This document shows positions 1,376 to 29,451 of a DNA stretch of 64,000 nucleotides, piece after piece. The notes under the pieces were generated by a model. The model saw only the letters and a list, made by a program, of their open reading frames with translations, was not told the origin of the DNA and searched no databases. Origin of the DNA: Limnochorda pilosa (GTDB lineage: Bacteria > Bacillota > Limnochordia > Limnochordales > Limnochordaceae). Position 1 is the stretch's first letter. The number at the start of each line of letters is the position of its first letter. Location: positions 372,001 to 436,000 of the forward strand of contig NZ_AP014924.1 in the NCBI RefSeq assembly GCF_001544015.1, in the 5' to 3' direction. The position numbers and the translations under genes are program-made.

Positions 1376-1474
1376 GGAGGTGGATGAGTCCCGGTGGGCT
1401 CCCCGGTCCTCAAAACCGGTGGCGCGCCGCTGCGAGCGGGGCGCGGTGGGTTCGACTCCCACGCACTTCCGCCA
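1376..1474 (+). tRNA. selC: tRNA-Sec (anticodon UCA)
   Basis: This is a 99-base tRNA with the features of bacterial selenocysteine tRNA. The acceptor stem is long (GGAGGTG against CACTTCC, with one G-U pair and a mismatch at the eighth position). The D stem has 6 base pairs (GAGTCC/GGGCTC). The anticodon stem CCGGT/ACCGG encloses loop CCTCAAA with anticodon TCA at 1410-1412. There is a long GC-rich variable arm, a T arm GTGGG-TTCGACT-CCCAC, discriminator G and an encoded CCA. It lies 23 bases upstream of selB and supports reading UGA as selenocysteine in the genes downstream. Confidence 0.95.
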
Positions 1475-1497: not shown

Positions 1498-3462
1498 ATG
1501 CAGACTCTGTGCACGGCGGGACACATCGATCATGGAAAGTCCGCCCTCGTGAGGGCGTTGACCGGGATCGATCCCGATCGCCTTCGAGAAGAGAAGGAAC
1601 GGGGCCTGACCATCGATCTCGGATTCGCCTGGCTTACGCTGCCAAGCGGGCGGACGGTGAACGTGATCGACGTCCCTGGACATGAGGATCTCATCAGAAA
1701 CATGCTGGCCGGGGTCAGTGCGGTTGACGCGGTGCTTCTCGTCGTGGCCGCGGACGACGGCGTCATGCCCCAAACGCGGGAGCACCTGGCCATCATGGGC
1801 CTGGCGGGTGTCTCAAGCGGCGTCGTGGCCCTGAACAAGATCGACGTGATGGACGATCAGGAGTGGATCGACCTTGTGGAGGCGGACGTGAAGGAGGCTT
1901 TAGCCGGTACGCACTTGGCGTCCGCCGAGGTGGTACCGGTGTCGGCCCGCTCGGGCAAGGGTCTGGAGCGCCTTCGCGCGACCCTTGACGAGACGCTCGC
2001 CAGGGTGAAGGCGCGCGAGGACCTGGCACACCCGCGGCTTCCCATCGATCGAGTCTTCAGTATCTCCGGGTTCGGGACGGTGGTGACGGGTACCCTAGTC
2101 GATGGGAGCATTTATCTGGGCCAGGAGCTGATGGTCTTCCCCGACAAGGGTACGGTCCGAGTAAGAGGGCTCCAGGTTCACGGGAATCCGGTCGATCGCG
2201 CGGAGCCGGGCACACGCGTTGCAGTGAACCTGCACGGAGGTACGAGCACCTTGCACCGCGGCACGGTCCTGGCCGAAGCCGACGCGCTCGAACCCGCGTA
2301 CGTGGTGCACGCCCGGGTTCGAATGCTCGGTGACCTGTCCCATGCTCTGCGTCACAATGAGGTGGTCGAGTGCTACTGGGGAACGGCGCGCACCATGGCC
2401 CGTGCCAGGCTTATTGAGGGGGATGAGCTGGAGCCGGGGAAGGAGGGGTGGGTTGAGTTCCGCTTCGCTCAACCGGTGAGCATGCTCCGGAACGACCGGT
2501 TCATCATTCGCCACCCTTCCTTAGGTGTGACCCTGGGCGGGGGGCGAGTGGCCGATCCGCGAGCTGCTCGACACTCGGGCCGGCGCAAGCGAGTTCTCGC
2601 TTCAGTTGAGCGGCTGAACGACGGGGGGCCACGTTCCGTCGTGAAGGCGGTTTTGTCAGACCTCGAACCCTGCCCGGCCGCTACCGTCATCCGAGAGAGC
2701 GCGCTTCCTCGTAAGGTAGCCGACCTTGCGTTGCAGCAGCTTCTCGACTCGGGAGAGGTGCTTTCTCTCGCGACGATCGGGGGGAAACAGCAGGAGCCGC
2801 AACCCGCGGCGTTGCTCGTGAGCCCGACAGGTTGGGCCCGCATTACGGAGCGGCTGCGCGATGCTCTACACGCATACCATCTCGAAAAGCCGTTGCGGCG
2901 GGGCATGCCGCGAGAGCAGTTGCGCCACCGTATGCGGATGGACCCTCCGACGTTCAACGCCGTGCTCGGCGCGGCGGCGCGCGAGGGTCTGGCGGTGTCG
3001 CTCGGGCCGGTAGTCTCCCTGACCGAGCACGATGTGCGCTTCACGCCAGAGCAGGAGCAACGCATTGATGGGTTGAAGCGCAGGCTCCGAGAAACCCGCA
3101 ATGCACCGCCCTCGCGCGCCGAGATGGAGGCCGCGGTCGGCCCGGACGTTTTCGAGGCCTTGGTCGAGCAAAGGTTCCTGATCAAGGTGGCCGACGATCT
3201 GTACTATCCGAGCGACGTCTACGATCGGATTGTGAACGAGCTCGTTCAGTTCATCCGCGAGAACGGACGCATATCCGTGGCGCAAGTGCGCGACCTCTTC
3301 GGGATCAGCCGAAAGTACGTCATCCCGCTCCTGCAGCACTGCGACGACCTACACCTGACGCGGCGGATCGGCGATGACCGCGTGCTCTTCGGATGTGCGC
3401 CGGAGCCTGGTGAGCGTGCTCCTGGAAGAGAAGGCATGCATCAGGAGGTGATCACGCCCTGA
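1498..3462 (+). CDS. selB: selenocysteine-specific translation elongation factor SelB
   Basis: SelB is a GTPase that delivers Sec-tRNA to the ribosome at UGA codons marked by a SECIS hairpin. The 654-residue product has the full translation-factor G domain: GHIDHGKS (8-15), switch region GLTIDLGFAWL (about 36-46), DVPGH (58-62) and NKID (113-116). EF-Tu-like beta-barrel domains follow. The C-terminal third is the set of winged-helix domains that bind SECIS RNA, ending near a FGISRKYVIPLL segment. The length is normal for the family. The ATG at 1498 follows AAGGA at 1481-1485. Its place between tRNA-Sec and three UGA-containing genes fits exactly. selA and selD are not in the window and must lie elsewhere. 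Confidence 0.97.
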   Translation: MQTLCTAGHIDHGKSALVRALTGIDPDRLREEKERGLTIDLGFAWLTLPSGRTVNVIDVPGHEDLIRNMLAGVSAVDAVLLVVAADDGVMPQTREHLAIMGLAGVSSGVVALNKIDVMDDQEWIDLVEADVKEALAGTHLASAEVVPVSARSGKGLERLRATLDETLARVKAREDLAHPRLPIDRVFSISGFGTVVTGTLVDGSIYLGQELMVFPDKGTVRVRGLQVHGNPVDRAEPGTRVAVNLHGGTSTLHRGTVLAEADALEPAYVVHARVRMLGDLSHALRHNEVVECYWGTARTMARARLIEGDELEPGKEGWVEFRFAQPVSMLRNDRFIIRHPSLGVTLGGGRVADPRAARHSGRRKRVLASVERLNDGGPRSVVKAVLSDLEPCPAATVIRESALPRKVADLALQQLLDSGEVLSLATIGGKQQEPQPAALLVSPTGWARITERLRDALHAYHLEKPLRRGMPREQLRHRMRMDPPTFNAVLGAAAREGLAVSLGPVVSLTEHDVRFTPEQEQRIDGLKRRLRETRNAPPSRAEMEAAVGPDVFEALVEQRFLIKVADDLYYPSDVYDRIVNELVQFIRENGRISVAQVRDLFGISRKYVIPLLQHCDDLHLTRRIGDDRVLFGCAPEPGERAPGREGMHQEVITP

Positions 3463-3520
3463 GTGGACCGGGATCCCAGAACGCAGAGTGACCCAAGTCA
3501 GACAGATGAGGAGGAAGACC

Positions 3521-5254
3521 GTGCGACACACACTTGCATGGCGGATGGTCATCGTGTGGGTGGCGCTGGCTGTGACTACGGTGCCGGTCGCTTTCGCGGC
3601 GGGCGGCGCGGACGTGCAGACGTGGCAACTCGTCAGTCCTGAAGGTGTCGTCGTGGTGGAACCGGTCGAGGCAAATCCGCATCCGACCACCTTGGAAGGC
3701 AGGACGATCGCCCTGTTCTGGAACGGGAAGCACAATGGCGACCTGTTCCTCACCCGAGTAGGCGAGCTTCTGATGGAGCAGGTGGAAGGCGTCGAGATCA
3801 TCAGGATCTGGGAGAATCACCCAGAGACGGCGGGCATCTCGGGATCTGTGGACAAGAGTAAGGCGAAGGCGGCGATCGTGGCCGGCTACAAGCCCGACCT
3901 CGTCATCGCCTCACAGTGCGATTGAGGGTCCTGCACGTCGTGGCTTGTCCACGACCAGGTCGAAATCGAGAAGCTGGGCATCCCGACCGTTACCATCAGC
4001 ACGACAGAGTTCGACGGGCTGGCGCTTAATTCCGCCCGCAGTTTCGGCGTAACCGACATGGCACGCGTCGTTGTGCCGCACCCCATGGGAATGATCAAGC
4101 CGGACGAGATCAGGGCCAAGGCGGATGCCGCATTCGCAGAGATCCTGAATGTGGCCACCGGGTGGCAGCCGAGCGCGGCGCAAGTGGCCGCCGCGGCACC
4201 GCCCTATCCGGCGCCCGTGATCAGGTTCACCGGCACCGATGAAGACGTCAACGAGCTCTTCTTCCGCAATGGCTGGTCTGTGGGCCTGCCCATCATCCCG
4301 CCGACGCCCGAGCGGGTGCAGGCCATGCTGAAGGGCACCAGTCACCGCCCCGACGAGGTCATCGGCATGATGACGCCCCGTATGGGTGCCGTCACGGTGG
4401 AACTGGTGGCAGTACACGCGGTGATGGCGGGCTGCAAGCCGGACCAGATGCCCGTGCTGCTCGCCGCCGTCGAGGCGCTGGTCGACCCAAGCTATCGAGG
4501 GCCTACCACAACGACCAACCCGACCGCGCCGCTGGTCGTCGTCAACGGTCCGATTGTGGACGAGGTAGGCATTGCGTATGGGCAGGGGGCGGCTGGGCCA
4601 TCCCAGCAGGCCAACGTCTGCCTCGGCCATGCGATCAACCTCATCGGCGACGTCATCGGCGGTTCAAGGCCGCCTGAGCCCGACAAGACGACCCTGGGCT
4701 GGCCTGGCAATACGGTGGCCATGGTGATCGCCGAGAACGAACAGGCTAATCCCTGGGGCCCTCTGCACGTGGAGCGGGGCTTCAACCCGGGCGATAGCAT
4801 CGTCACTGTGATGACCGGGGCTGAGATTCCGGCCAACATCAATGACCACAACAGTATCACCGGAGAGGACTTGCTGCGAGTCATTGCGCACAGTATGGAC
4901 CGGGCTGGGCAAAACACCCGCTGCTTCTCCGACTCCGATGTACTCGTGATTCTGAGCCCCGAGCACGCAGCGACCATCTTCAGCGACGGCTGGAAGAGCA
5001 AGGACGAGATGCGGCGGTTCTTGTGGGAGAACTCGAAGGTGCCCTTCGAAGCCATGCCAGGGGCAGGGGCCATTTGCAAACCCCCGCGCTGGTTTGGCAG
5101 CCCCGGGCCAGGTGACATGATCCCCATCGTCTCAAGTCCGGAGCGCATCCAGCTCATCGTGAGCGGCGGTGCCGGCAAGCACAGTGTCTACGTCTCCTCC
5201 TTCGGCGCCCAGACGCCGCGGCTGATCAGCGTGTCGGCGGACAAGTGGCGGTAA
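3521..5254 (+). CDS. secreted selenoprotein, UGSC family (first copy, UGA read as Sec135)
   Basis: The frame is open from 3521 to TAA at 5252-5254 except for one TGA at 3923-3925. Read as selenocysteine it gives a 577-residue protein with Sec at 135 in the motif U-G-S-C (135-138). GTG at 3521 is chosen because GAGGAGGAAG (3508-3517) precedes it. Residues 1-26 are a signal peptide. The N-terminal domain carries WNGKHNG (67-73) and ends IASQCD before Sec. The large C-terminal domain has GLPIIPPTPERV, then AVHAVMAGCKPDQMP, and ends GGAGKHSVYVSSFG. The UGSC family of (seleno)proteins is known but its reaction is not. U-x-x-C resembles thioredoxin-fold and glycine-reductase B redox motifs, so thiol/selenol redox chemistry outside the membrane is inferred. 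Confidence 0.88.
3923..3959 (+). promoter_or_regulatory. SECIS-like element of the first UGSC gene
   Basis: After the UGA (3923-3925) comes an 11-base gap and then a perfect 7-bp stem GTCGTGG (3937-3943) / CCACGAC (3949-3955) with loop CTTGT. An outer CCTG/CAGG stem (3930-3933 with 3956-3959) is separated by a three-base bulge. Forty bases (3919-3958) are identical to the matching region of the next selenoprotein gene, although the flanks diverge. Stem size and spacing match bacterial SECIS elements recognised by SelB. Confidence 0.75.
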
Positions 5255-5431: not shown

Positions 5432-7153
5432 ATGAAAGGGCAATGCTGGTGCATCGTGATCTGCTCGCTCGTAGTCGCCTTGGTCGGCGCCGTAAGTGCA
5501 GGCCCGATCGTCGCACAGGAGGCCCAGAAGTGGGAATTGGTCAACCCGGAGGGCGTTGCATGGGTTGAACCAGTGAAGATCGCGGAGCGAGTCGACTCGC
5601 TGGAAGGCAAGACCGTCGTGCTGTTCTGGAACGGGAAGCACAACGGCAACAACTTCCTCGACCGGCTGGCTGAACGGCTGGATGCCCAAGTGGAGGGGGT
5701 GCGTGTCCTCAAGTCGTGGGAGGAACCGCTCAACGTCCCACCCGGACAAAACGTCGCGGCCCAGATGATCGAAGCATGGCAGCGAGTAGGGATCAAACCG
5801 GATCTGGTGATCGCCTCCCAGGCCGATTGAGGGTCCTGCACGTCGTGGCTTGTCCACGACCAGATTGAGTTCGAAAAGCTGGGTGTACCGACTGTCACCG
5901 TTACCACGACGGAGTTTGAAGGATTGGCCCGGTCCACCGCGGCCAGCTTCGGTGCCGCGGACCTGTGCTTCGTCGTCCTACCTCATCCCATGGGCGGCAT
6001 CAAACGGGAGGCCATCCGCGCCCAGGCCGACAACGCCTTTGAAGCCGTCGTGCGAGCCGCGGTGGACTGGAGGCCGTCCGCTGCCCAGATGGCTTCACGA
6101 AGGGGAGCATACCCCTCAGAGCACTTCACCTTCCAAGGCAGCCTCGATGACGTGATCGCCCTCTACTCTGGCAACGGGTGGAGCGACGGGCTGCCCATCA
6201 TTCCGCCGACGCCGGACCGGGTGGCAGCCATGCTGAAGGGGACGCACCGATCCCCAGACACGGTGATCGGCACGGTTCCGCCTCGCATGGGCATGCTCAC
6301 CGTCGAGCTGGCCGCGGTCCACGCTGTGATGGCCGGTGCTCGCCCAGAGCATTTTCCGCTCATCCTGGCGGCGGCCGATGCATTGCTGGACCCACGACAC
6401 GACTTTCGTTCAGCAACCACCACCACCAACCCCTGCGCCATCTTCATTCTGGTCACCGGGCCAGCGGTGCAGGAGATCGGGGTTCAGTACGCTGAAGGCG
6501 CGCTGGCGCCGGGTCCGTTCAGTGGGCCGAACGCGACCGTCGGGCGCGCGATCAACCTCATCATGGACGTGGTGGGTGGATCGAAGCCGCCGTCGCCTGA
6601 CAAATCAACCCTCGGCTCGCCCGCCAGCTACACGATGGTATTGGGAGAGAACGTGGACGCGACCCCGTGGAAGACGGTCAACGAGCAACTGGGGTTCGAC
6701 CGTGATGCCAATTTGGTGACCGTCTTCGAGATGCGCAGCTTCGTCAACTTCAACCTGCATAACCCCAACACCGCGGAAGGGCTGCTCGATCCTATGGCGG
6801 CTACGATCGGTCCGGTGGCAGGTCTGGCTGAGAACGCGTTCGAATGCGGGCGCGGTCCTGCCAAGGTACTGGCATTGAGCCCAGAGCATGCGGCGACCAT
6901 CGCTGGGGAGGGGTGGACCGAAGCGGATGTGAAGGCCTACCTGCACGAGCATGCAAGCATCTCGATGGAGCGGTACCTCGTGCGTAACAACGGTGTGGAA
7001 CCCGACTGTCGGCAGGATGAGGCCGAACCGTCAGTCTTGGCGGAGCCTGGCAACGTCCTAGTGGTCGTGGCGGGCGGTCCGGGCAAGCACTCGGTCTATC
7101 TGGAGACCACCCGGTACGCGCCCGTCTCCAAGTCCCTGGAGGCGTGGAGATAG
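5432..7153 (+). CDS. secreted selenoprotein, UGSC family (second copy, UGA read as Sec133)
   Basis: This is a tandem paralogue of the preceding gene. The frame is open from ATG 5432 to TAG 7151-7153 apart from TGA at 5828-5830. Read through, it is 573 residues with Sec133 in U-G-S-C. A signal peptide covers about residues 1-28. The N-terminal domain again has FWNGKHNG (65-72) and the phrase KPDLVIASQAD before Sec. The C-terminal domain repeats GLPIIPPTPDRV, HAVMAGARPEHFP and a terminal GGPGKHSVYLET. In the first copy the residue two before Sec is Cys; here it is Ala, so that Cys is not essential. The start is the first ATG before the signal peptide; its ribosome site is weak. A redox role at the cell surface is inferred. 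Confidence 0.88.
5828..5863 (+). promoter_or_regulatory. SECIS-like element of the second UGSC gene
   Basis: UGA at 5828-5830 is followed by the stem GTCGTGG (5842-5848) / CCACGAC (5854-5860) with loop CTTGT. The spacing is identical to the first copy, and 40 bases match without change. The outer stem is one pair shorter because the last G is A here. Confidence 0.75.
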
Positions 7154-7180: not shown

Positions 7181-7271
7181 CGTCCCGGCAGTTGCAGGCT
7201 GCTCGAAACACGCCGCTTGTGCGATGGGGGCTTGAGGGTTGAGCAGTGAAGCGAGGGCAACCGCCGGGACG
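7181..7271 (+). other. structured RNA candidate between the UGSC genes
   Basis: A long-range stem pairs CGTCCCGGC (7181-7189) with GCCGGGACG (7263-7271), then after one A-C mismatch GTTGC (7191-7195) with GCAAC (7257-7261). Inside it CTGCTC (7199-7204) pairs with GAGCAG (7241-7246), leaving a 36-base purine-rich apical region. No protein is recognised in the segment. It could be a riboswitch-like leader for the downstream gene, a processing site or a decayed repeat. I do not recognise a known class. Confidence 0.35.
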
Positions 7272-7282
7272 AGAGGAGGGAT

Positions 7283-7306
7283 GGCGGGGGGTGATCGCCC
7301 CCCGCC
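7283..7306 (+). other. GC stem-loop before the short UGSC paralogue
   Basis: A perfect 9-bp stem GGCGGGGGG (7283-7291) / CCCCCCGCC (7298-7306) has a 6-base loop. It lies 50 bases upstream of the chosen start of the next gene and immediately after the larger structured segment. Confidence 0.5.
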
Positions 7307-7355
7307 GATATTCGTGCCGAGCTGCAACAGTCGGATCCGGAGGATGAGCCGCCTG

Positions 7356-8687
7356 ATGACGCGGACAAGGATCGCACTCGCAGCGTGCATGGCCGCGGCT
7401 CTCCTTGAAGCCGCGGTGGTCTCGGGCTCTAGCGGCACTGACGTCGCAGGGGAACGCTCCGTCGGACAGGAGTCGCACGAGGTGTGGATCTACAATCCTG
7501 CCGGTATCCGTCCGGACGGTCAGTACGTGGATGAACTGCTCTCGGCCACGATGCGGGAGATGGGGCTGTCGAAGCCGCCAATGGCAGGGCAGTTTCCCAA
7601 GGCACGCGTCGAGCGAATGACCGTGGAGTCGGACGTCCTGGACGAGGTCAACCGACTGTTCTACGAGCGTGGCTGGTCGGATGGTCTACCCATCGTGCCC
7701 CCCACGGCGCAACGCGTCGCCGAGATGCTCAGAGGGGCCGATCTTTCCCCAGATGTCGTCGTGGCTACCCTTCCTCCGATGGGGGGGCAGGCGACCATCG
7801 AGAAGATCGCGGTCAACGCGGTCATGGCCGGCTGCCGGCCCGTCGACATGCCCCTCCTCATCGCAGCCACCGAAGCCCTTGCCGATCCCGCTTTCGACCT
7901 CCGAGGCCTGGCTACCACAACCAGCCCCGACACGCCCATGGTCATCGTGAGCGGGCCCATCGTGTCGCAGCTCGGGCTCAACGCCGGCACCAACGCATTG
8001 GGAAGAGGATGGCGGGGGAACGCGGTCGTAGGTCGAGCGCTGCACTTGATCGTTCAAAACATAGGTGGAAGCTGGCCGGGCGTCACCGATCTGTCGTGCT
8101 TGGGCTATCCTGGGGATTTCACGATGGTCTTGGCCGAGAACGCCGAGGCGAGCCCCTGGGCCCCCTTCCACACAGATCTGGGGTTCAGCAAGCGCGCCAA
8201 CGTGGTCAGCGTCGTCGGCGCTGAAGGGACCCACAACATCCTGGGGATCGGTCAGGGCACCCGCGGCTTCATGAAGCTGGTGGCCGCCCACCTTGCTGGC
8301 ATGGATCGCCCCATCCGCTCGGTGGTCGTACTGATCGTCGCCCAGGACACCGCCCAACAGCTCGCCGAAGAGGGATGGACCCCCAAGAGCATGCGGGCGT
8401 TCATCCAGGACAACGCTGCGATTCCGTTTTACGTCTACAAGGAGCGTTTCATAGACACAGGGATGGCACGGCGGGTGCCGGATTGGGTTCACCAGACCCA
8501 ATCGCCCGACGAGCTGATTCCGACTCCCCTCATTGAGCAAATGCTGATCCTGGTTTCAGGAGGGCCGGGTGAGAAGAGCATGGTCGTTCCAGGATGGCCG
8601 GCTGGTTCGATGGTGAGCCGGGAGATACGACTGCCCTGGAATTGGGACGAGCTGGTCGAAGCCTATGTGCCAGACTACGATCGATAG
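7356..8687 (+). CDS. exported UGSC-family paralogue lacking the selenocysteine domain
   Basis: The 443-residue product aligns with the C-terminal part of the flanking selenoproteins: GLPIVPPTAQRV, AVNAVMAGCRPVDMP, ATTTSPDTPMVIVSGPIV and a terminal LVSGGPGEKSMVV. The N-terminal domain and U-x-x-C motif are missing. A WIYNPAGI phrase just after the signal peptide recalls the start of the mature selenoproteins. ATG 7356 begins a good signal sequence (about residues 1-22) and lies 12 bases after GGAGG (7339-7343); ATG 7344 is possible but lies directly against it. A naturally shortened partner or subunit is more likely than a pseudogene, because the frame is intact over its whole length. Confidence 0.75.
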   Translation: MTRTRIALAACMAAALLEAAVVSGSSGTDVAGERSVGQESHEVWIYNPAGIRPDGQYVDELLSATMREMGLSKPPMAGQFPKARVERMTVESDVLDEVNRLFYERGWSDGLPIVPPTAQRVAEMLRGADLSPDVVVATLPPMGGQATIEKIAVNAVMAGCRPVDMPLLIAATEALADPAFDLRGLATTTSPDTPMVIVSGPIVSQLGLNAGTNALGRGWRGNAVVGRALHLIVQNIGGSWPGVTDLSCLGYPGDFTMVLAENAEASPWAPFHTDLGFSKRANVVSVVGAEGTHNILGIGQGTRGFMKLVAAHLAGMDRPIRSVVVLIVAQDTAQQLAEEGWTPKSMRAFIQDNAAIPFYVYKERFIDTGMARRVPDWVHQTQSPDELIPTPLIEQMLILVSGGPGEKSMVVPGWPAGSMVSREIRLPWNWDELVEAYVPDYDR

Positions 8688-8868
8688 ATGAACCGTCGAG
8701 TCGACGAAGGGACTCGCTGGCTCATCGCCGCGCGGGCCGCGTCGTAGCCGGGATTGGATCAGCAAACTGAAGCGACTCCGCGAGCATCGGGCAATCGGCG
8801 TGCAAGCTGGCATTGATACACTAGGCATTGTGGGAAGGGAACTTCACGCGAACGGGGTGATGTTTGGT

Positions 8869-9339
8869 ATGCAAGGATTCGCAGTGCGGCGGCAGATGTT
8901 GAGCCGTCTGGGCGTCGCATCCTTCGTGCTGTTGCTGGGAGGCCTCCTCCTGGCGCGGGGGGCATCGGCGCAAGCTTTTCAGATGATCTCGGCCCAAGAT
9001 CTGAGGTCGCTGATCGATGGGCCCGAGGCTCCGGTCGTGTTGGACGTACGGCTGGCCGACGAGGTTTCGGTACTGGGCAAGATCCCGGAGGCGACGGTCG
9101 TCTCCCTGAACGACCTCATGCTTCAAGTGTCCTCCGTTGTGCCCGACCAGGGCGCAACTGTCGTCATCTACGCGGCAAGCGACGCCACGGCGAAGATGGC
9201 CGCGTTGGCCCTCACCCAACTCCTCGGTTACACCGACGTACGGTTTCTCGAGGGAGGCTTCGACGCCTGGGACCTATCGGGATACCCCGTGGAACCGTGG
9301 GAGGGTCCTCAGGCGGCACCCATTCCCGGAGGCTGCTAA
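8869..9339 (+). CDS. secreted rhodanese-like protein without the catalytic cysteine
   Basis: The roughly 156-residue product has a signal peptide followed by one rhodanese fold: QDLRSLIDGPEAPVVLDVR, then IPEATVVSLNDL, VVIYAASDATAKMAALAL and FLEGGFDAWDLSGYPV. In active rhodaneses the loop after VVIY starts with Cys; here it reads Ala-Ala-Ser, so persulfide transfer by the usual residue is not possible. The only cysteine in the mature part is the final residue. ATG 8869 is used; 8860 and 8896 are alternatives with no decisive ribosome site. It sits between two UGSC-family genes, so a binding or scaffolding role in the same extracytoplasmic system is inferred. Confidence 0.7.
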   Translation: MQGFAVRRQMLSRLGVASFVLLLGGLLLARGASAQAFQMISAQDLRSLIDGPEAPVVLDVRLADEVSVLGKIPEATVVSLNDLMLQVSSVVPDQGATVVIYAASDATAKMAALALTQLLGYTDVRFLEGGFDAWDLSGYPVEPWEGPQAAPIPGGC

Positions 9340-9457: not shown

Positions 9458-11269
9458 ATGGATATGTGGGTAAGAAGGAGGTTCGCCCAAGTGCACGGTG
9501 CGCGTGGTTGGCGGAGATGGAGCATGCTCTTGGCCGTCGTCATGTCGTGGTCGTTGGCTGCGGCCATCAGCCCTACGGCCTCAGCTGCCGTTCAGTTCTC
9601 GGTGTTGAATCCATCGGCCGAAATCGAAATCACCCATCCGATCGCTGCCCGACCGGGAGACCTCAACGGCAAGAGGATCGGCCTCTGGGCTTCGTCCGCC
9701 GATCCAATCTACGGGTACGGTGCCGCGTTCCTCGAGAGCCTCGGCGAAGCTCTTCAGGAGCGGTACCCAGACATTGCGTTGATCCCGCCGGCGGAGTTCC
9801 CAACGGACTACCACATGCAGGACGAACTCTTCGCAGCGATCGAGGCCCACGGCGTGGAGGCCGTCATCGGCGGGGTGGGCGGCTGAGGCGGGTGCAATCG
9901 GGCGATGGGTCTCATCGCCGTCGAGCTCGAAAAGGCGGGTATCCCGACCACGTTCGTGCTGTTCGAGGACCAGGAAGCGACCTTTCTTGCTCAGGCAGGC
10001 TTGAACGGCCAAGGTGTGCTGCCCGCCGTGACCGTGCCGGCAGCTGAACTGACGGAAGAAGCGCGCGCTCGGCAAGCCGGACGTGAAGTCGTGGATGACG
10101 TAGTGAACGGGCTTACCCGAGGCATCCCACCCTATCTGGAACGCAACGAGAATAGGCTGATTCCGTCTCCTTCGGTCTTGACGTTTAGGGGCGAAGACTA
10201 CGGCGGGGCCTATCAGGCCTTCATGGAGACGTTCACCGAGAGGCGTTGGGGGGACGGCCTGCCTTTGATCCCACCGACACCGGAGCGGGTGGAATGGGTC
10301 CTCGAGGGGACCGATCGCACGCCGGGCACCGTCCTTGGCGCCATGGGGCCCAGCATGGGAGAGGTCACGGTGCGTCAGCTGGCCATCAACGCGGCCATGG
10401 CAGGAGCTCGACCCGAGCACCTGCCGGTCATCATCGCGGCCATGGAGGCCATCACCGCCTACCCTTACGACTACCATGCGCCTCTGGCTCGCGGTGTGGC
10501 GCCACTGGTGATCGTGAACGGGCCGATCGTGGATCAACTGGGGATCAACCACGCACAGAACGAGCTGGGGCCCCACCCGGGCTATCCGGCCGGGGCCGTG
10601 ATCGGTCGGGCCATCAACCTTGCCATGCGCAATCTCGGCGGGTTTGGCCGAGGGTACGTTCCACCCGCCCAGCACGGGCAACCAGGAACGTACACGGGCC
10701 TCGTCATCGGTGAGGCAGAGGACGTGGTGCCCTGGACACCCCTCAACGTGGAACTGGGCTTTGAGCGGGGAACGAATACGGTGACGGTCCTCGGTGTGTC
10801 TGGAACCGTCGGCGTTCCTGGACCCAACCCGGAGCACGCGGCGGCCTTCGTGCCCCCGAGTATCCCATTCTGGCCGTCAACGCGGTTCGCGTGGCAACGT
10901 TCCACCGTCGGCGTCCTCCTGGTCACGCCTTTGCAGGCGCGGCGTTTCTTCGGCCAAGGGCGGTCCAAGCAGGACATCAAGGAGGTTCTGTACACCTACG
11001 CCCGGACCCCTCGTGACGAATTCGAGCGGACGTGGCAACTCGATGAGTTCGAACCGACCGGATTCATTGGGTGGCTCCTCCGGACCACTCCCGAAGACGA
11101 GCCCATTCCGATCGCTGCTGGCCCCGACAGCTTCCTCGTGGTCACAGCCGGCGGGTGGGACAGCTCGGTCGCGTTCTCGTGGCTGTTCACAGACCTCTAT
11201 ATGAACGTTCCAACAACCAAGGTGGTGCACCTTCCACAGGACTGGGAGGACCTCTTGAGCGAGCGGTAG
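9458..11269 (+). CDS. secreted selenoprotein, UGGC variant of the UGSC family (UGA read as Sec143)
   Basis: One TGA (9884-9886) interrupts an otherwise open frame from ATG 9458 to TAG 11267-11269. Read through, it is 603 residues with Sec143 in U-G-G-C, followed by NRAMGLIAVELEKAGIPT. The flanking U-x-x-C then alpha-helix then AGIPT layout resembles the selenoprotein B family of glycine/betaine reductases. A signal peptide covers about residues 1-43. The C-terminal part matches the other paralogues (GLPLIPPTPERVEWVL, AINAAMAGARPEHLP, a final VVTAGGWDSSV). The N-terminal domain is divergent and lacks WNGKHNG. The reaction is unknown; exported selenol redox chemistry is inferred. Confidence 0.85.
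9884..9919 (+). promoter_or_regulatory. SECIS-like element with GGUCU loop
   Basis: UGA (9884-9886) is followed after 14 bases by a perfect 7-bp stem GGCGATG (9901-9907) / CATCGCC (9913-9919). The loop GGTCT matches the apical loop of the well-studied E. coli formate dehydrogenase SECIS, where the G and U contact SelB. It differs in sequence from the two upstream elements. Confidence 0.8.
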
Positions 11270-11290: not shown

Positions 11291-12778
11291 GTGACGGGAC
11301 GGTATCGTGAGCCACGACGACACAGCAGCACCGTGCTGATGTTGATCGTCCTTCTGGGAGCGAGCCAGGCAGTTCGGGCATCGGCGTCCAGTGCTGACCC
11401 GGTTCCCTCGCACGCACGGGGGGCCCTGGAGAGTTGCGAGATGTGCCACTTCAGCCGCCAGCGCCTTATCCAGACGGCGGACTCGCCTGAGGAGGCGGAG
11501 GCGGTCTGGGTGGATCAGAGGGCCTTTCTCATGGCGAGGCATCCCTTTCAATGTGTCGTCTGTCACGGAGGGGTGTCGCCGGCAAGCGGGAAGGAGATGG
11601 CCCACGAAGGGCTCATTGAGGACCCGGGAGCACCGGAGGTGCTGGGCCAGTCGTGCGGGCAGGAGAAGTGCCATCCAGAGATAGCCGAAACCTACCCCAC
11701 TTCCCTTCACGCTACCGTTCAGGGTCTCAAGAACGGGGCTTATGAGGTGTTGCCCCCCGAGGAGGCGGAGCGGGTTGTCTCCGGCCGGTGCAATACGTGC
11801 CACGCAGGGTGTTCGGATTGCCACCTCGCTGAGGGCGACGGGAACCTGCGCGTGGCCAGCCACGACTTCAGCGCGACGAACGGCTCGGACGTCTGCATCC
11901 GCTGCCATCAGGAAACGGGAACGGGCTTCGAAGGGGCCGAGGGCTTCTTCGGCCCCAGCGTCCACGCCTCGGCTGGGCTGGAGTGCACCGATTGCCACCG
12001 GGGGTCGGAGGTACACGGCACGGGGGAGGCTCTGAGCAACCTCCGTCAGGCCATCGCGATCTCGTGCACGGACTGCCATCGGCAACCAGGTACCGTGGTA
12101 CGCGGTCTCGAAGTACCCCAGTACCAGACCGGCGGTGAGAACGTCTCCCACGCTCTCCACGAAGAGAGCCTGGACTGCACCGCGTGTCACATCGAGTGGA
12201 ACTACAACTGCTACGGCTGCCATGGCTACGACGAGGCGGCCCAACCCAAGGGCTACCAGAGCTTCGATACCGAGGTGCACCTCGCGGTGGACCCGGCGAA
12301 GGACAAGGTGGCAACGGTGGTCCACGCCCCCATGAGTCGCACCGTCGGCGGCCGGGAGTACGCATACGGCGCGTGGGCGTTCAAGAACCGCCATGCACTC
12401 CAAGTGGCCCCTCGTTCGTGCGAGGAGTGCCATGCTGACGGTTCCATCTTCATCGACAGCCGGTGGCGGCGAGCCCCCTTCGTGGGGACCTTCTCAGGCG
12501 CTGAATTCGTCGCGGACGAGACCGTCGACGCGATCCGAGTCTCCCGAGAGGCGGCGCTGGCTCTGGCGGCCTGGTTCATGCCGGAGCGAGACCAGGCGAC
12601 AGCCCAAGCTGCCCAGGTCAGTCTGGATGGGGTGGAGGAAGGGGATCACGTGGCCGTCCGGTGGGCCCTGTGGTTCTATCGGGTACTGATTCCCCTGGTC
12701 ATCGGAGGCTTCATCCTGCTCATCGTCCTGGACGTGCGAAGGCGCTCGCTGCACCGGCGGGAGGGGAGGGCTTCCTGA
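11291..12778 (+). CDS. membrane-anchored multiheme cytochrome c
   Basis: The 495-residue product has an N-terminal signal sequence, ten CxxCH heme motifs and one CGQEKCH motif (Cx4CH). This suggests up to eleven c-type hemes on the outer side of the membrane. A transmembrane helix near residues 460-480 (WFYRVLIPLVIGGFILLIVL) followed by basic residues anchors it. GTG 11291 follows AGGGAAGGGG. The stop overlaps the start of the cytochrome b gene by one base, so the two are probably made together and pass electrons between the quinol pool and exported partners. Similarity to NapC/NrfH-type or tetrathionate/DMSO chains is only general. Confidence 0.88.
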   Translation: MTGRYREPRRHSSTVLMLIVLLGASQAVRASASSADPVPSHARGALESCEMCHFSRQRLIQTADSPEEAEAVWVDQRAFLMARHPFQCVVCHGGVSPASGKEMAHEGLIEDPGAPEVLGQSCGQEKCHPEIAETYPTSLHATVQGLKNGAYEVLPPEEAERVVSGRCNTCHAGCSDCHLAEGDGNLRVASHDFSATNGSDVCIRCHQETGTGFEGAEGFFGPSVHASAGLECTDCHRGSEVHGTGEALSNLRQAIAISCTDCHRQPGTVVRGLEVPQYQTGGENVSHALHEESLDCTACHIEWNYNCYGCHGYDEAAQPKGYQSFDTEVHLAVDPAKDKVATVVHAPMSRTVGGREYAYGAWAFKNRHALQVAPRSCEECHADGSIFIDSRWRRAPFVGTFSGAEFVADETVDAIRVSREAALALAAWFMPERDQATAQAAQVSLDGVEEGDHVAVRWALWFYRVLIPLVIGGFILLIVLDVRRRSLHRREGRAS

Positions 12779-13897: not shown

Positions 13898-15043
13898 GTG
13901 AAGAAGTACCTGACGGAAATGCTCACCTGGCCTGTCCTGACGGGTCTCGTCGTCGGCGTTCTGGCTCCCGTTCTCGTGAAGCTGGGGAATCCCCACAACA
14001 TGGGCGTCTGCGTGGCCTGCTTCACCCGGGACATCGCCGGGGCCCTGGGGTTCCACCGGACCGGGAGCGTCCAGTACCTCCGCCCGGAGATCATGGGGAT
14101 CGTCCTGGGTTCCTTGGCGGCTGGCCTGGTGTTTCGCGAGTTCCGCCCTCGAACCGGTTCCGCCCCCTTGGTCCGGTTCGTCTTGGGGTTCTTCGCCATG
14201 ATCGGTGCCTTGGTCTTCCTGGGCTGCCCGTGGCGGGCCTACCTCCGGCTGAGCGGCGGCGACTGGAACGCGCTCTATGGGATACTGGGGCTGGCGGCGG
14301 GGATCGGCGCCGGGGTGGGTTTCCTCAAGTCCGGGTTCAGCCTTGGGCGAAGCAGGCCGGCTGCACCCGCCCTCGGTTGGATGATGCCAGCAATCATGGT
14401 GGGTCTGCTGCTCTTGGCGGTCCTCGCGCCGCAGTCAGGCCTCGCTGCGGACGGAAGCCCCACAGGTCCCGTCTTCTTCTCTACCCAGGGCCCGGGGAGC
14501 CAGCATGCACCCTGGCTGAGCTCCCTGGGAGTGGGGCTCCTCCTTGGCTTCCTGGCCCAGCGCAGCAGATTCTGCACCGTGGGTGCGCTGCGTGACGTGA
14601 TGCTCTTCAGGGAGACGCATCTCTTAGGGGGAATCGTCGCGCTGATGGCCGCTGCCTTCGTGACGAACGTAGTCCTGGGCGAATTCCATGCCGGTTTTGA
14701 GAACCAGCCGGTGGCTCATTCGAACGTGCTCTGGAACGTCGGGGGCATGGTGCTGGCCGGTCTCGCCTTCACCCTGGCAGGTGGCTGTCCGGGCCGGCAA
14801 CTGATTCTGTCGGGCGAAGGGGACGGGGACGCGGCACTCTTCGTCCTCGGGATGCTTGCGGGGGCCGGAGCGGCGCACAACTTCAACATGGCCAGTTCCC
14901 CGGCCGGTCCCGGTGCGTACGGGCCCGCAGCGACCCTGGTGGGCTTGGTGATCTGCACGGTGCTCGGATTCACGATGCGCGAGGTGCCTGAGCAGAGGGC
15001 CAGCGCTACAGGATGGGGTGCGGCGAGCCAGGTCAGCAAGTAG
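13898..15043 (+). CDS. yedE: selenium metabolism membrane protein YedE/FdhT
   Basis: The 381-residue polytopic membrane protein matches the YeeE/YedE family in its selenium-linked form. NPHNMGVCVACFTRDIAGALG (30-50, Cys38 and Cys41), GCPWRAYLRLSGGD, RSRFCTVGALRDV and GGCPGRQLILSGEGDGDAA are hallmark segments. YedE is proposed to take up a selenium or sulfur species for selenoprotein synthesis. GTG 13898 is chosen because GGAGGTGG lies 8 bases upstream; an earlier GTG at 13817 would add a non-conserved extension. It is the first of four consecutive genes for selenium or sulfur handling. Confidence 0.92.
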   Translation: MKKYLTEMLTWPVLTGLVVGVLAPVLVKLGNPHNMGVCVACFTRDIAGALGFHRTGSVQYLRPEIMGIVLGSLAAGLVFREFRPRTGSAPLVRFVLGFFAMIGALVFLGCPWRAYLRLSGGDWNALYGILGLAAGIGAGVGFLKSGFSLGRSRPAAPALGWMMPAIMVGLLLLAVLAPQSGLAADGSPTGPVFFSTQGPGSQHAPWLSSLGVGLLLGFLAQRSRFCTVGALRDVMLFRETHLLGGIVALMAAAFVTNVVLGEFHAGFENQPVAHSNVLWNVGGMVLAGLAFTLAGGCPGRQLILSGEGDGDAALFVLGMLAGAGAAHNFNMASSPAGPGAYGPAATLVGLVICTVLGFTMREVPEQRASATGWGAASQVSK

Positions 15044-15077
15044 GTGACCTTCACGACCGATTGAAGGAGGACGCGAC

Positions 15078-15296
15078 GTGGATGATGCGGTGTTGGACGC
15101 CCGGGGGCTCTCCTGCCCGGAACCGGCCCTTCGAACCGTTGAGCTGCTGGAGCGGTCACACGGCGGGACGGTGATCGTCCTGGTAGACTCGGTCAACTCC
15201 CGGGACAACGTGGCCCGTACCGCGGCCTTGCACGGCTGGCAGTCCACGGTGGTCGAGTTGGCGGGCGGAGACTATCAGGTGGTCCTTCGCAAGTGA
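15078..15296 (+). CDS. TusA/YedF-like sulfurtransferase-family protein
   Basis: This 72-residue protein has the TusA/SirA fold with the signature LDARGLSCPEPALRT (7-21), including the conserved Cys-Pro. It corresponds to the N-terminal half of YedF, the partner of YedE in selenium metabolism; the second YedF domain is absent. GTG 15078 follows AAGGAGG (15064-15070). Its stop overlaps the start of the desulfurase gene (GTGA), so translation is coupled. It probably carries sulfur or selenium on the cysteine. Confidence 0.88.
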   Translation: MDDAVLDARGLSCPEPALRTVELLERSHGGTVIVLVDSVNSRDNVARTAALHGWQSTVVELAGGDYQVVLRK

Positions 15297-16447
15297 TCTA
15301 CATGGACCATGCAGCGACCTCGTGGCCCAAGCCCCCTGAGGTCCTCAAGGCGATGATACAGTACCTGGAAGAGTCTGGCGGCAATCCGGGGCGCTCAGGG
15401 CATCGTCTCTCGGTCGCCGCGGGCCGGATCATCTACGAGACTCGGGAAGCAGTGGCCGAGTTGCTGGGCGTGCGTGATCCCCTGCGGGTCATCTTCACGC
15501 TCAATGCGACGCACGCGATCAACCTGGTCCTGAGAGCCACGCTCCGTCCAGGAGATCGTGTGGTCGTTACGGGTATGGAGCACAATGCGGTGATGAGGCC
15601 CCTGCGGGCCATGGCGGTCAAGCACGGGATTCAGGTCGTGGTAGCGCCGGCCCAATCCGACGGGAGCACCGATGTGGCACAGGTGGGACCACTGCTGCAG
15701 CCGAAAGCCCGCCTTCTGGTGGCTGCTCATGCGAGCAACGTCACTGGGACTCTCGCGCCGATGGAAGAGCTCTCCCGCCTCGCGCACGCCGCGGGGGCGT
15801 TGGTCTTGGCGGACGCTGCGCAGACCGTGGGTGCGGTTCCCATCGGAATAGGGCACATGGGGGCGGACTTCCTCGTCTTCAGTGGCCACAAGGGCCTTCT
15901 GGGACCACCTGGCACGGGCGGGGTCGCCCTGGGCGACGGGGTGGATGCCACAGCCCTCGAGCCGCTGATCCTTGGTGGAACGGGGAGCCGCTCCGAATCT
16001 GAGGAGCCGCCCGCCCACCTCCCGGACCGGTTCGAGGTCGGGACGCCCAACGGTGTCGGACTGGCCGGGTTGGGGGCCGGGGTACGCTGGGTGCAGAGCC
16101 ACGGGGTGGAGGAGCTTCGCGCGCGGGAGATGAGCCTGCGCAGACAACTCGTCGAAGGGCTCAAGACGTTGCGCGGGGTCGTCGTTCACGGACCGCGCAA
16201 TCCCGCAGATGCCACGGCGGTGGTTTCGTTCACCGTGCTGGGTCGCTCGGTGTCCGAGATCGGATCACAGCTTGACGAACGTTTCGGGATCCTGTGCAGG
16301 GTGGGTCTCCACTGCGCGCCGCGCGCCCACCGAAGCATTGGAACCTATCCAGAGGGTACAGTCCGACTTTCGCCGGGCCCGTTCATCGAACCTGCGGACA
16401 TTGACGCGGTGCTCTCTGCGCTGAGACAGGTGGTGGCACGTTCATGA
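15293..16447 (+). CDS. cysteine desulfurase / selenocysteine lyase family PLP enzyme
   Basis: This class V aminotransferase-fold enzyme has 384 residues. It begins YMDHAATSWPKP, binds PLP through Lys200 in SGHKG, and carries the catalytic-type Cys341 in GLHCAP followed by AHRSIG. The pattern fits the cysteine desulfurase family close to SufS/CsdB. Such enzymes release sulfur from cysteine or selenium from selenocysteine. The overlap with the TusA-like gene upstream and the DUF3343 gene downstream points to a selenium or persulfide delivery unit for the selenoproteins and perhaps for the molybdoenzymes. Substrate choice cannot be read from sequence. Confidence 0.9.
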   Translation: MIYMDHAATSWPKPPEVLKAMIQYLEESGGNPGRSGHRLSVAAGRIIYETREAVAELLGVRDPLRVIFTLNATHAINLVLRATLRPGDRVVVTGMEHNAVMRPLRAMAVKHGIQVVVAPAQSDGSTDVAQVGPLLQPKARLLVAAHASNVTGTLAPMEELSRLAHAAGALVLADAAQTVGAVPIGIGHMGADFLVFSGHKGLLGPPGTGGVALGDGVDATALEPLILGGTGSRSESEEPPAHLPDRFEVGTPNGVGLAGLGAGVRWVQSHGVEELRAREMSLRRQLVEGLKTLRGVVVHGPRNPADATAVVSFTVLGRSVSEIGSQLDERFGILCRVGLHCAPRAHRSIGTYPEGTVRLSPGPFIEPADIDAVLSALRQVVARS

Positions 16448-16716
16448 ATCCACAGGGTGTCGTCCTCTTCCATACCAGTTCGTCCGCATTCCGAGCAGAG
16501 AAGATTCTCTTGCGGGATGGGCTCCGCTGCAAGCTCATACCCACACCCCGGGAGATGTCCAGTGACTGCGGAATAGCGCTGTGGTTTGCAGGCGTTCGGC
16601 CCGATCATGTGGCCGGCCTGCTGGATTCGGCGAACGTGGAGGTTGCGGCGATCCACGGGACAGGTGGAACGCGGGGCAGAGTCCAACGGATCTCTCGGCC
16701 TGAGAACGGTTCTTAG
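16444..16716 (+). CDS. DUF3343 putative Se/S carrier-like protein
   Basis: A 90-residue protein with the DUF3343 pattern: FHTSSSAFRAEKILLRDG, then KLIPTPREMSSDCGIAL with the conserved single Cys. Members are small thiol carriers often found beside selenium or sulfur genes; function is not proven. The ATG overlaps the desulfurase stop (ATGA), so it is translationally coupled and is the last gene of the selenium supply block. Confidence 0.85.
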   Translation: MNPQGVVLFHTSSSAFRAEKILLRDGLRCKLIPTPREMSSDCGIALWFAGVRPDHVAGLLDSANVEVAAIHGTGGTRGRVQRISRPENGS

Positions 16717-17927: not shown

Positions 17928-20531
17928 ATGCAGGGTTCGCAGACCAACATGCTCGACCCCAGGCTGAACCGACGGTCACTCCTGAAGTGGACTGCGGCCG
18001 CGGCCGGCGGGCTTGCCATCGGCGGCCGGGGCTTCGGCTTGGTACAGGCCGACCCGGCCCGCGTTGCCGCCCAGGGCGGCACCAGGACCGAGGGCGGCAG
18101 GTGGGTGGCGGTTGCTTGCTGGCACAACTGCGGGGGCCGGTGCCTCAACAAGGCGCTGGTGGTGGACGGCGTCGTGGTGCGGCAGAAGACGGACGACACC
18201 CACCCCGACACCCCCGACTTCCCGCAGCAGCGGGGCTGCGCCCGCGGCCGCTCCCAGCGCCAACAGGTGTTGGGCGCAGACCGCCTGAAGTACCCGATGA
18301 AGCGGAAGCACTGGGAGCCCGGCGGCGGCAACAAGGAGCTGCGGGGCAAGGACGAGTGGGTCCGAATCTCCTGGGAAGAAGCATTGGACATCGTCGCCAG
18401 TGAGATCAAGCGGGTCAAGGAGCAGTATGGCAACAAGTCGATCATCATGCCCCGTAGGGGCAGCAAGCTGATCAACGCCCTGGGCGGCGGTCTGGAGAGC
18501 TGGGGCGTTACGTCCGACGGGGCCTGGCCCGCGGTGACCGCACACATGGTCGGCTCCCAACCGGTCAACGACCGTTTGGACTGGCGGAATGCCAAGCTGC
18601 TGGTCCTCTGGGGTGCGAACCCCGCCTGGTCCAGCGCCGGCAACCCGGCCTACAACCTGCTGCAGGTCAAGAAGGCAGGCGCCAAGATCATCTGCGTCGA
18701 CCCGATGTACTCGGCCACGGCCCAGGCCCTGGCCGACGAGTGGATCCCGGTCCGGCCGGGCACCGATGCGGCCCTCCTGATCGGCATGGCCTACCACATG
18801 ATCACCAACAACCTGCAGGACCAGGCCTTCCTGGACAAGTACACCGTCGGCTTCGACCGGGACCACATGCCGGAGGGCGCCGATCCGAAGGAGAACTTCA
18901 AGGACTACGTACTGGGTACCTATGACGGCGTCCCCAAGACGCCGGAGTGGGCCTCTGAGATCTGTGGCATCGACCCCCGGACCATCCGTTTCTTCGCCCA
19001 GGAGCTCGCCACCACCAAGCCGGCGATCATGTCCTCCTCGTCGGCGCCAGCCCGGACGTCGCTGGGTCAGCAGTTCTGCCAGGCCTTCCTGACCGTCGGC
19101 TGGATGACCGGGAATGTGGGCATCTCCGGCGGGGGCGTCTGGCAGTCCTACCATACCAACGCGAGCTACTCCAGCCAGAGCCTGGTCCGCTCCGGGGGCA
19201 CCGGTGCAGGCAACATCCCGAACCCGCTCTTCCCTTACGGCACCTACGGTTTCTCCAGCCCGGAGAAGAGCGACTGGTACGGCATGGCGCACGAGGAGAT
19301 GTACAGCGCCATCATCAACGGTGAGTACACCCGGGGTGTGAACGGCAAGGAGAAATGCGACATCCGGCTGCTCTACTGCATCCGAGACAGCAACGGCGGC
19401 AACTTCCTCAATCAAGAAGCGGGTATCAACGAGGGCATCGAGGCGATGCGGAAGCTGGACTTCATCGTCACCAGCGACATCGTCCTCTCCACCGTCTCCA
19501 AGTACGCCGATGTGGTCCTGCCCGAGTGCACCTGGTGGGAGAAGGCGGGCACCACGCTGTCCGGCAACCCCGAGGCGATCTTCGTCTTCGGAAAGGTGAT
19601 CGAACCTCTCTATGAGGCTCGGGACGGGATGTGGATCGAGCGCGAACTGGCCAAGCGTCTGGGCCTCGATCCAGATGAGGTTCACCCGCTCTCCCGGGAG
19701 CAGCAGTTCTTCAATCAAATCGCCGGCGCGAGGGTGATGAAGCCCGACGGCTCGGGCTGGGAGCCGCTGGTCACCATCACCGAGCAGGATATCACCGCGC
19801 TCGGCGTGGAAGGCAAGCCCCAGCAGGGCCGCGTCTCCTTGCAGGAGTTCAGGGAGCGCGGGGTCTACCAGGTCGAGCGGAAGCCTGGCGATGCGTTCTC
19901 CGGGTTCATCGCCCACAAAGCTTTCCGGGACGATCCCGAGAAGAACCCCCTGCCGACCCGCAGCGGCAAGCTGGAGATCCACTGCCAGGCGCTCTCCGAG
20001 AAGATCGCCGCCTATGGGTTCACCACGTGCCCGCCCATCGCCATGTACCGGCCGCCCGTGGACGGGTACGAGGCGACTTTCAAGGACTTCGAGCACAAGG
20101 TCAAGGGCGACTACCCGCTGCAGCTCTTCACCCCGCACTACCCGCGTCGTTCCCATTCGGTCTTCGACAACATCAGGCAGCTGCGGGAGGCCTTCCCGCA
20201 GGAGTGCTGGATGAACCCCGTGGATGCCGAGCCCCGTGGCATCGTCACCGGTGACACGATCAAGATCACCTCGAAGTGCGGGACCGTCATCCGGCCGGTG
20301 GAGGTCACGGAGCGGGTGGTGCCCGGCACCGTGGCGCTCGGTGAGGGCGCCTGGGTCGAAAGGGATGATGAGACCGGCATCGACAAGGCCGGCGCCACCA
20401 ACTCTCTCACCAGGAGCCTTCTTACCGGCCAGGGCGAAGAACCGTGGAACACAGTGAACTGCCAGGTGGAAAAGTGGACCGGCGAGCCTCTGGCTCCTGA
20501 CGTCACCTGGCCGCAGCGGATTGTCTTCTGA
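17928..20531 (+). CDS. dmsA: DMSO-reductase-family molybdoenzyme, catalytic subunit (operon 1)
   Basis: The 867-residue protein starts with a twin-arginine signal (NRRSLLKW at 14-21). It has a Cys64-x3-Cys68-x3-Cys72-x31-Cys104 iron-sulfur site. Segments DEWVRISWEEALDIVASEI, DEWIPVRPGTDAALL and FTPHYPRRSHS match DmsA and its relatives. Ser196 in WGVTSDGA aligns with the serine that ligates molybdenum in DmsA. Length is normal for the family. ATG 17928 follows GGAGGT. The substrate (DMSO, another S- or N-oxide, or a selenium or other oxyanion) cannot be decided. It is exported by Tat and works with dmsB and dmsC. Confidence 0.92.
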   Translation: MQGSQTNMLDPRLNRRSLLKWTAAAAGGLAIGGRGFGLVQADPARVAAQGGTRTEGGRWVAVACWHNCGGRCLNKALVVDGVVVRQKTDDTHPDTPDFPQQRGCARGRSQRQQVLGADRLKYPMKRKHWEPGGGNKELRGKDEWVRISWEEALDIVASEIKRVKEQYGNKSIIMPRRGSKLINALGGGLESWGVTSDGAWPAVTAHMVGSQPVNDRLDWRNAKLLVLWGANPAWSSAGNPAYNLLQVKKAGAKIICVDPMYSATAQALADEWIPVRPGTDAALLIGMAYHMITNNLQDQAFLDKYTVGFDRDHMPEGADPKENFKDYVLGTYDGVPKTPEWASEICGIDPRTIRFFAQELATTKPAIMSSSSAPARTSLGQQFCQAFLTVGWMTGNVGISGGGVWQSYHTNASYSSQSLVRSGGTGAGNIPNPLFPYGTYGFSSPEKSDWYGMAHEEMYSAIINGEYTRGVNGKEKCDIRLLYCIRDSNGGNFLNQEAGINEGIEAMRKLDFIVTSDIVLSTVSKYADVVLPECTWWEKAGTTLSGNPEAIFVFGKVIEPLYEARDGMWIERELAKRLGLDPDEVHPLSREQQFFNQIAGARVMKPDGSGWEPLVTITEQDITALGVEGKPQQGRVSLQEFRERGVYQVERKPGDAFSGFIAHKAFRDDPEKNPLPTRSGKLEIHCQALSEKIAAYGFTTCPPIAMYRPPVDGYEATFKDFEHKVKGDYPLQLFTPHYPRRSHSVFDNIRQLREAFPQECWMNPVDAEPRGIVTGDTIKITSKCGTVIRPVEVTERVVPGTVALGEGAWVERDDETGIDKAGATNSLTRSLLTGQGEEPWNTVNCQVEKWTGEPLAPDVTWPQRIVF

Positions 20532-29075: not shown

Positions 29076-29451
29076 GGGCTCCCCCAAGACCAAGGCTCGC
29101 AGGTCGAGAAGAGAGGTGGCGGGCGGTCGCCCGCGCATGATCCAGACACAACCCAAAGTCTCCGAGCCTTCAGGACCTAAGGCACCTGTTTCGTGAGGCG
29201 GGCGCAAAGGCCTGAGGCCGAACCTCGGCAGAATCCGAGGGACCGCCGGACGGGGAGCGCCCCCGGGCGGCGGTCGTGGGTAGGGAAGGAAACGACCCTG
29301 CCTCCCCGTGCTTGGAAAGGAGACGCCCAACCGAAGCGTCGACGCGTCGCCGGTCGAAGGGTGGGGGCCGGCGATCTTGCGCCTCGGGCACCAGCGCTTC
29401 GGGCGCCGCCTGGCTTGCACGGGTCCCTGTAGTCGAGAGGGGGCAACCCTG
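29076..29451. other. long GC-rich leader before the NTPase-ECF operon
   Basis: No convincing gene is seen in these 376 bases. A 7-bp stem TCGCCGG (29347-29353) / CCGGCGA (29368-29374) and the palindrome GCGTCGACGC nearby suggest structure. A ligand-sensing leader would fit a vitamin or cofactor transporter, but I do not recognise a known riboswitch class. Confidence 0.3.

Follow-up and report, generated by a model that had tools for sequence, protein, structure and literature searches.

The UGA at positions 3923-3925 of the DNA analysed here, a 64,000-nucleotide stretch of the Limnochorda pilosa genome (NZ_AP014924.1, positions 372,001 to 436,000; hereafter the window), can be regarded with near certainty as a selenocysteine codon, which encodes Sec135 of a UGSC protein (gene 1). 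This assignment, which the first-pass annotation had proposed, is now backed by the pairing of TGA with Cys codons in distant relatives, by hairpins behind the UGA that are constrained at synonymous sites, and by a complete Sec pathway (tRNA-Sec, selB, selA and selD) in the genome. That Sec is inserted at this codon and that the domain around it is of the GrdB/PrdB type is, as a joint claim drawn from sequence comparison, very likely. The family to which the protein belongs is already catalogued, as PF24696, as NF041046 and in reviews as the UGSC-containing protein, known from the GOS selenoproteome.

The reading frame, its paralogues and the selenium machinery

The frame of gene 1 comprises 577 codons from the GTG at 3521, ahead of which a Shine-Dalgarno-like GAGGAGG is found at 3508-3514, to the TAA at 5252-5254, and is broken by the TGA at 3923-3925; the residue number 135 presumes this start. 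Past the UGA the frame is indeed open, as annotated before, with 442 sense codons, the earlier count of 443 including the stop. Of its paralogues, gene 2 shares 47% protein identity with gene 1, and the residues around the UGA are, as expected, D-U-G-S-C-T, the [UC]GSC motif being present as UGA-GSC at 3923-3934. With 125 bits against PF24696, where the cut-off is 25, the gene 1 product is a member of this family; its 125.1 bits against NF041046 lie barely above the cut-off of 125. Residues 37-213 form the UGSC domain, followed by a domain of about 345 residues. All coordinates are summarized in the table.

Table. Features in the window and at related places in the genome (C1, genome coordinates)
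Feature	Position	Strand	Remarks
tRNA-Sec gene, anticodon UCA	1376-1474	+	Rfam RF01852, 69.3 bits
selB, Sec-specific elongation factor	1498-3462	+	TIGR00475, 337.7 bits (cut-off 242.25)
UGSC selenoprotein gene 1	3521-5254	+	577 aa with Sec135; GTG start; signal peptide-like N-terminal stretch
UGSC domain PF24696 of gene 1	3629-4159	+	Rossmann-like in model; homologue of the GrdB/PrdB Sec domain by profile comparison
UGA as selenocysteine, U of UGSC	3923-3925	+	in frame with GTG 3521
bSECIS-like hairpin GUCGUGG-CUUGU-CCACGAC	3937-3955	+	7 bp; starts 12 nt after UGA; G in apical loop
C-terminal domain of gene 1, without named family	4217-5251	+	separate adjacent gene in Cys-form relatives
UGSC selenoprotein gene 2	5432-7153	+	Sec133; UGA 5828-5830; hairpin 5842-5860
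C-terminal domain paralogue, without UGSC domain	7239-8687	+	C-only genes recur in related loci
Rhodanese, signal peptide-bearing	8800-9339		between UGSC genes
Divergent UGSC-like selenoprotein gene 3	9458-11269	+	U-G-G-C; UGA 9884-9886; hairpin 9901-9919; GGUCU-type loop
Multihaem cytochrome	11291-12778		
YedE-type putative selenium transporter	13898-15043		
TusA/YedF-like protein	15078-15296		
Selenocysteine lyase/cysteine desulfurase-like protein	15299-16447		
Fourth UGSC gene	C1:371061-371588	-	just upstream of window
selD copy	C1:368797-369723	-	Sec form; one in-frame TGA near start
selD copy	C1:3420759-3421685	+	Sec form; one in-frame TGA near start

The genome has four UGSC genes, which all pass the PF24696 cut-off and each contain exactly one internal TGA, at the same codon throughout. 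Gene 1 is not the first of them, as had been assumed, since a further one, on the minus strand, precedes it just beyond the edge of the window. Gene 3 reaches 65.9 bits against the Pfam cut-off of 25 but only 42.2 bits against the NCBIfam cut-off of 125, and may thus be missed by automatic annotation. Compared to the UGSC family at large, gene 1 has in common the UGSC motif, the in-frame UGA for Sec and a hairpin of the bacterial type; it differs by its fusion to the C-terminal domain, its signal peptide-like N-terminus and the presence of four Sec copies at the locus.

The tRNA-Sec and selB genes lie directly upstream of gene 1, as reported before. With selA (562 bits) and the two selD copies, selA, selB, selC and selD are all present in the genome. 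One selD copy adjoins the fourth UGSC gene near the window and encodes the sequence KAG-U-ASKLNPEDL. Since selB itself, like other window genes, ends in a TGA used as stop, UGA is not generally reassigned. The tRNA-Sec gene is adjoined on its other side by a gene (379-1338) for an UshA-like PCGU-family protein (135 bits; cut-off 275) that ends K-C-G-C-stop, possibly the Cys version of a known selenoprotein. Further downstream, the YedE-type, TusA/YedF-like and lyase-like genes stand in a row with a gene for a small unassigned protein (13898-16716), an arrangement that has the appearance of a selenium supply cluster. Beyond it two related molybdopterin reductases of the DMSO/selenate type are encoded (17928-20531 and 23139-25733), accompanied by partly duplicated genes for an Fe-S subunit, an anchor and a chaperone, and a match to the Moco/tungsten riboswitch is found at 29148-29338.

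Codon and hairpin across relatives

We scanned about 85,000 species genomes with the pattern QxDCGSCT, which led to 24 loci. The pattern codes only for Cys, so that Cys forms were favoured by the scan; despite this, none was found among the full-length close relatives. Exactly at the Sec codon, TGA is present in 36 homologous places of these loci and TGC in one, the motif being lost in one further place. The TGA bearers belong to the Desulfobacterota, Nitrospirota, Chloroflexota, Bacillota and Burkholderiales and are metagenome-assembled genomes named Desulfovibrio, Syntrophaceae, Nitrospiraceae, Chloroflexota, Syntrophomonadaceae, Thermacetogenium and Burkholderiales. Cys occupies the Sec position in distant relatives, which sit on plasmids: the codon is TGC in the homologues of Natrinema, Embleya and Variovorax, and Cys is likewise found in those of Halalkalicoccus, Halorientalis and Arthrobacter. 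TGA is present on the plasmids of Acidovorax sp. T1 (L068, 5741-6031) and Paracoccus ferrooxidans (L069, 5215-5502), whose UGSC genes are publicly annotated as stubs that stop exactly at the UGA; the splitting of such genes by standard gene callers, predicted from the window, is hence already on record. The Paracoccus record also carries a selB about 4.7 kb downstream of its UGSC gene. Two degenerate relatives were encountered, one in Sporomusa termitida (L074, 8752-10476) with M-G-T-S in place of UGSC/CGSC, and one Syntrophaceae copy (L008, 9001-9519) that reads G-D-R-C.

In bacterial selenoprotein genes, the UGA is expected to be followed at once by a stem-loop whose apical loop is small and contains a G (PMC1088965). 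The hairpin that the first-pass annotation had seen behind the UGA of gene 1 is of this kind, being located directly behind the codon with a small, G-bearing apical loop, and is kept across phyla. Family hairpins start 12-18 nt behind the UGA. Most of the genes share a CUGGU...ACCAG stem about 17 nt after it, while GUCGUGG-loop-CCACGAC at a distance of 12 nt is found in genes 1 and 2, in one Chloroflexota and one Syntrophobacterales gene and in Acidovorax and Paracoccus, with one or two pair changes among these sharers.

The fold energy of the gene 1 hairpin is unexceptional compared to dinucleotide shuffles (z = -1.3, one sequence), and a synonymous shuffle scored by minimum free energy gave a weak signal (mean z = -0.53 versus -0.12 in controls). 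Such energy tests are too blunt, and we therefore used a position-specific stem test in which the codons of a gene are replaced by synonymous ones drawn according to the usage of that gene, with windows of the same genes as controls. Hereby, a stem score of at least 16 was obtained for 30 of 34 Sec genes compared to 31 of 873 control windows, and the real stem ranked better among its synonymous recodings (median p = 0.128) than in controls (0.560; Mann-Whitney p = 1.4e-12, a value that overstates the strength of the effect because the sequences are related). Codon choice in the hairpin region points the same way, Leu being encoded by CTG in 25 of 28 cases (background 39%) and Asp by GAC in 29 of 30 (background 54%). 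Covariation contributes a single compensatory pair (six sequences in the register of the window's hairpin), with 93 of 500 shuffles performing as well; the structural case thus draws on the constraint at synonymous sites and on pairing that is conserved, and not on covariation. Genes 1 and 2 add that their longest identical stretch, of 40 bases, encloses the UGA (3919-3958 and 5824-5863) and that degenerate codons behind it are identical in 9 of 10 positions compared to 100 of 239 elsewhere (p = 0.003), an identity to which gene conversion could have contributed. As judged from these comparisons, the hairpin is kept at the RNA level within a stretch that is also under protein constraint.

These data bear on three other accounts of the UGA. 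With a true stop, 134 N-terminal residues would be made as one product and a protein of 398 residues, starting from the ATG at 4058, as another; an open frame with this start (4058-5254) does exist, and the annotated stubs in relatives have this form. Termination at this codon would, however, cut the Rossmann-like domain mid-way and part U from GSC, whereas the truly split relatives divide behind the UGSC domain and carry a Cys codon; moreover, the stretch between the UGA and 4058 is strongly conserved as protein in 28 sequences. We thus consider a true stop very improbable. Even less credible, and practically negligible, is the notion that the UGA arose from a Cys codon by pseudogene mutation or reflects faulty sequencing. 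A single base change from TGC or TGT would suffice, and the possibility of error has been raised generally for single-copy cases (PMC2398784), but the same TGA is present in four paralogues of one finished contig and in 36 places of independent assemblies, and the genes that bear it are otherwise intact, with a conserved hairpin behind. Decoding as another amino acid, by a change of the code or by read-through with Trp, would equally keep the UGSC frames open; yet selB and other window genes end in TGA, distant relatives replace the UGA by Cys and not by Trp or Gly, and the Sec system is complete, which makes this account extremely improbable.

Relationship of the UGSC domain to GrdB and PrdB

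In hhalign, the UGSC domain and the Sec domain of GrdB can be aligned from GIPxV through HPxG with their Sec residues matched (96.9%). Compared to the C-terminal part of GrdB the value is 97.1%, again Sec on Sec, and it remains at 95.1% when both profiles have the Sec motif masked; in controls, 30 column shuffles never exceeded 1.9% and the reversed profile reached 20.3%, E-values of these pairwise runs being without database calibration. A single PrdB sequence reached 86.3%. In line with this, the NCBIfam model of GrdB (TIGR01917) matches 22 of 28 UGSC members (best 8.1e-6) and that of PrdB (TIGR04483) 13 of 28 (best 2e-5). The general Rossmann pattern adds to the signal, since the N-terminal half of GrdB (94.0%) and a part of GrdE (L078, columns 295-389; 70.9%) match the UGSC domain as well. 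The GrdE match hints at one ancestral Rossmann-type domain behind GrdB, GrdE and UGSC sequences.

The fold of the domain has been described as likely thioredoxin-like by Zhang and Gladyshev (PMC2398784). The AF2 model (pLDDT 87.5, pTM 0.85) instead shows a predicted N-terminal domain that is Rossmann-like and matches PurE, B12-binding and FtsZ-type folds at Z 9-10, with no thioredoxin among the matches listed. Given this predicted structure and the profile homology to GrdB/PrdB, a thioredoxin-like fold appears doubtful. Neither for GrdB nor for the gene 1 protein did we find a sequence relative of solved structure, and the UGSC literature consulted makes no link between UGSC proteins and GrdB/PrdB. 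On profile evidence, the UGSC domain is a homologue of the GrdB/PrdB Sec domain and probably not thioredoxin-like.

With GrdB/PrdB the gene 1 protein shares this domain, the place of Sec, the UG[ST]C motif and GIPxV, as well as HPxG with GrdB. The relationship is distant only. The gene 1 protein scores 12.5 bits against TIGR01917, far below the family cut-off of 602 (300 for TIGR04483); its signal peptide-like N-terminus is a further difference, and its partner domain is not GrdE. The C-terminal domain gave 0.2% against GrdE (hhalign), so that the partner is unlike that of glycine reductase. TIGR04483, PF07355 and PF09338 have no match in the genome, which returned no match for GrdB, PrdB or GrdE; the missing PF09338 match concerns the pyruvoyl partner GrdE/PrdA. 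Both by cut-offs and by partner, the gene 1 protein is outside GrdB/PrdB.

Partner domain and proposed mechanism

The C-terminal domain (about 345 aa) matched no Pfam or NCBIfam family. Fold candidates were rejected as weak, namely Leishmania fumarate hydratase (E = 2e-3, rmsd 17-18) and chorismate mutase (Z 5.4 over 91 residues). A fusion of UGSC to a domain named Unknown_1 was recorded in 2008 by Zhang and Gladyshev (PMC2398784), possibly the same domain. It occurs alone at 7239-8687 and in several related loci, and in haloarchaea, Arthrobacter and Embleya it is encoded, in varying order, next to a separate UGSC gene. Fused in one lineage and adjacent in another, the two domains are thus partners. 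In one record, from Arthrobacter, the order is trxB-trxA-C-domain-UGSC, and catabolic clusters surround several of the Cys-form genes that plasmids of haloarchaea and Arthrobacter carry. By eye, the Sec-form fusions mostly have hydrophobic N-termini resembling signal peptides or lipoproteins and would thus be exported; the Cys forms and the Acidovorax and Paracoccus proteins are without such N-termini.

The selenol of GrdB and PrdB is involved in reductive cleavage, after which thiols or thioredoxin reduce it again. Because of this chemistry, and because the Arthrobacter pair lies directly behind trxB and trxA, we propose a two-part selenol reductase. SelB with Sec-tRNA(Sec), directed by the hairpin, would read the UGA so that gene 1 yields one selenoprotein, which is probably exported. 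Sec135 would act as the catalytic nucleophile in the Rossmann-like domain with Cys138 of UGSC as its resolving partner, and the second domain would correspond to the partner subunit of the split relatives. The reaction would probably be a thiol- or thioredoxin-dependent reductive cleavage of a small substrate. Sequence comparison shows Sec at this position, its hairpin, the homology and an architecture of two parts. The nucleophile chemistry, electron donor, export and substrate class are inferred, and we regard this mechanistic part as a serious possibility on which we would not yet rely.

Two other functions are compatible with Sec insertion, and we consider each of them unlikely. The UxxC motif and the fold favoured in the literature would suit a general thiol-disulfide redox protein of thioredoxin type. 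This is opposed by the Rossmann-like prediction for the N-terminal domain, by homology to proteins whose Sec acts in reductive cleavage, and by the catabolic clusters around Cys forms. A mainly periplasmic role in metal(loid) binding or in sulfur/selenium carriage could be read from the neighbouring rhodanese, multihaem cytochrome, YedE-type, TusA/YedF-like, lyase-like and oxidoreductase genes, and rhodanese-like genes recur near several related loci, as seen by eye. However, selenium supply can account for these neighbours, and the plasmid-borne Cys forms of haloarchaea and Arthrobacter have catabolic neighbours instead. Returning to the selenol reductase, we suggest, more tentatively still, that UGSC proteins may constitute a third and widespread branch of GrdB/PrdB-type enzymes with another partner, either fused or separate, run by thioredoxin in the cytoplasm of Cys-form bearers and moved to the envelope in Sec-using anaerobes, to cleave their substrate there.

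In conclusion, the reading of the UGA as Sec confirms a predicted and routinely mis-annotated selenoprotein, with three such genes in the window and a fourth adjoining it. What is added is the kinship with GrdB/PrdB, together with Cys forms that are split and linked to thioredoxin. From this kinship, a family without assigned function that is abundant in metagenomes would gain a testable chemistry, namely selenolate attack on a small molecule by an enzyme of two parts, with thioredoxin as its electron donor.
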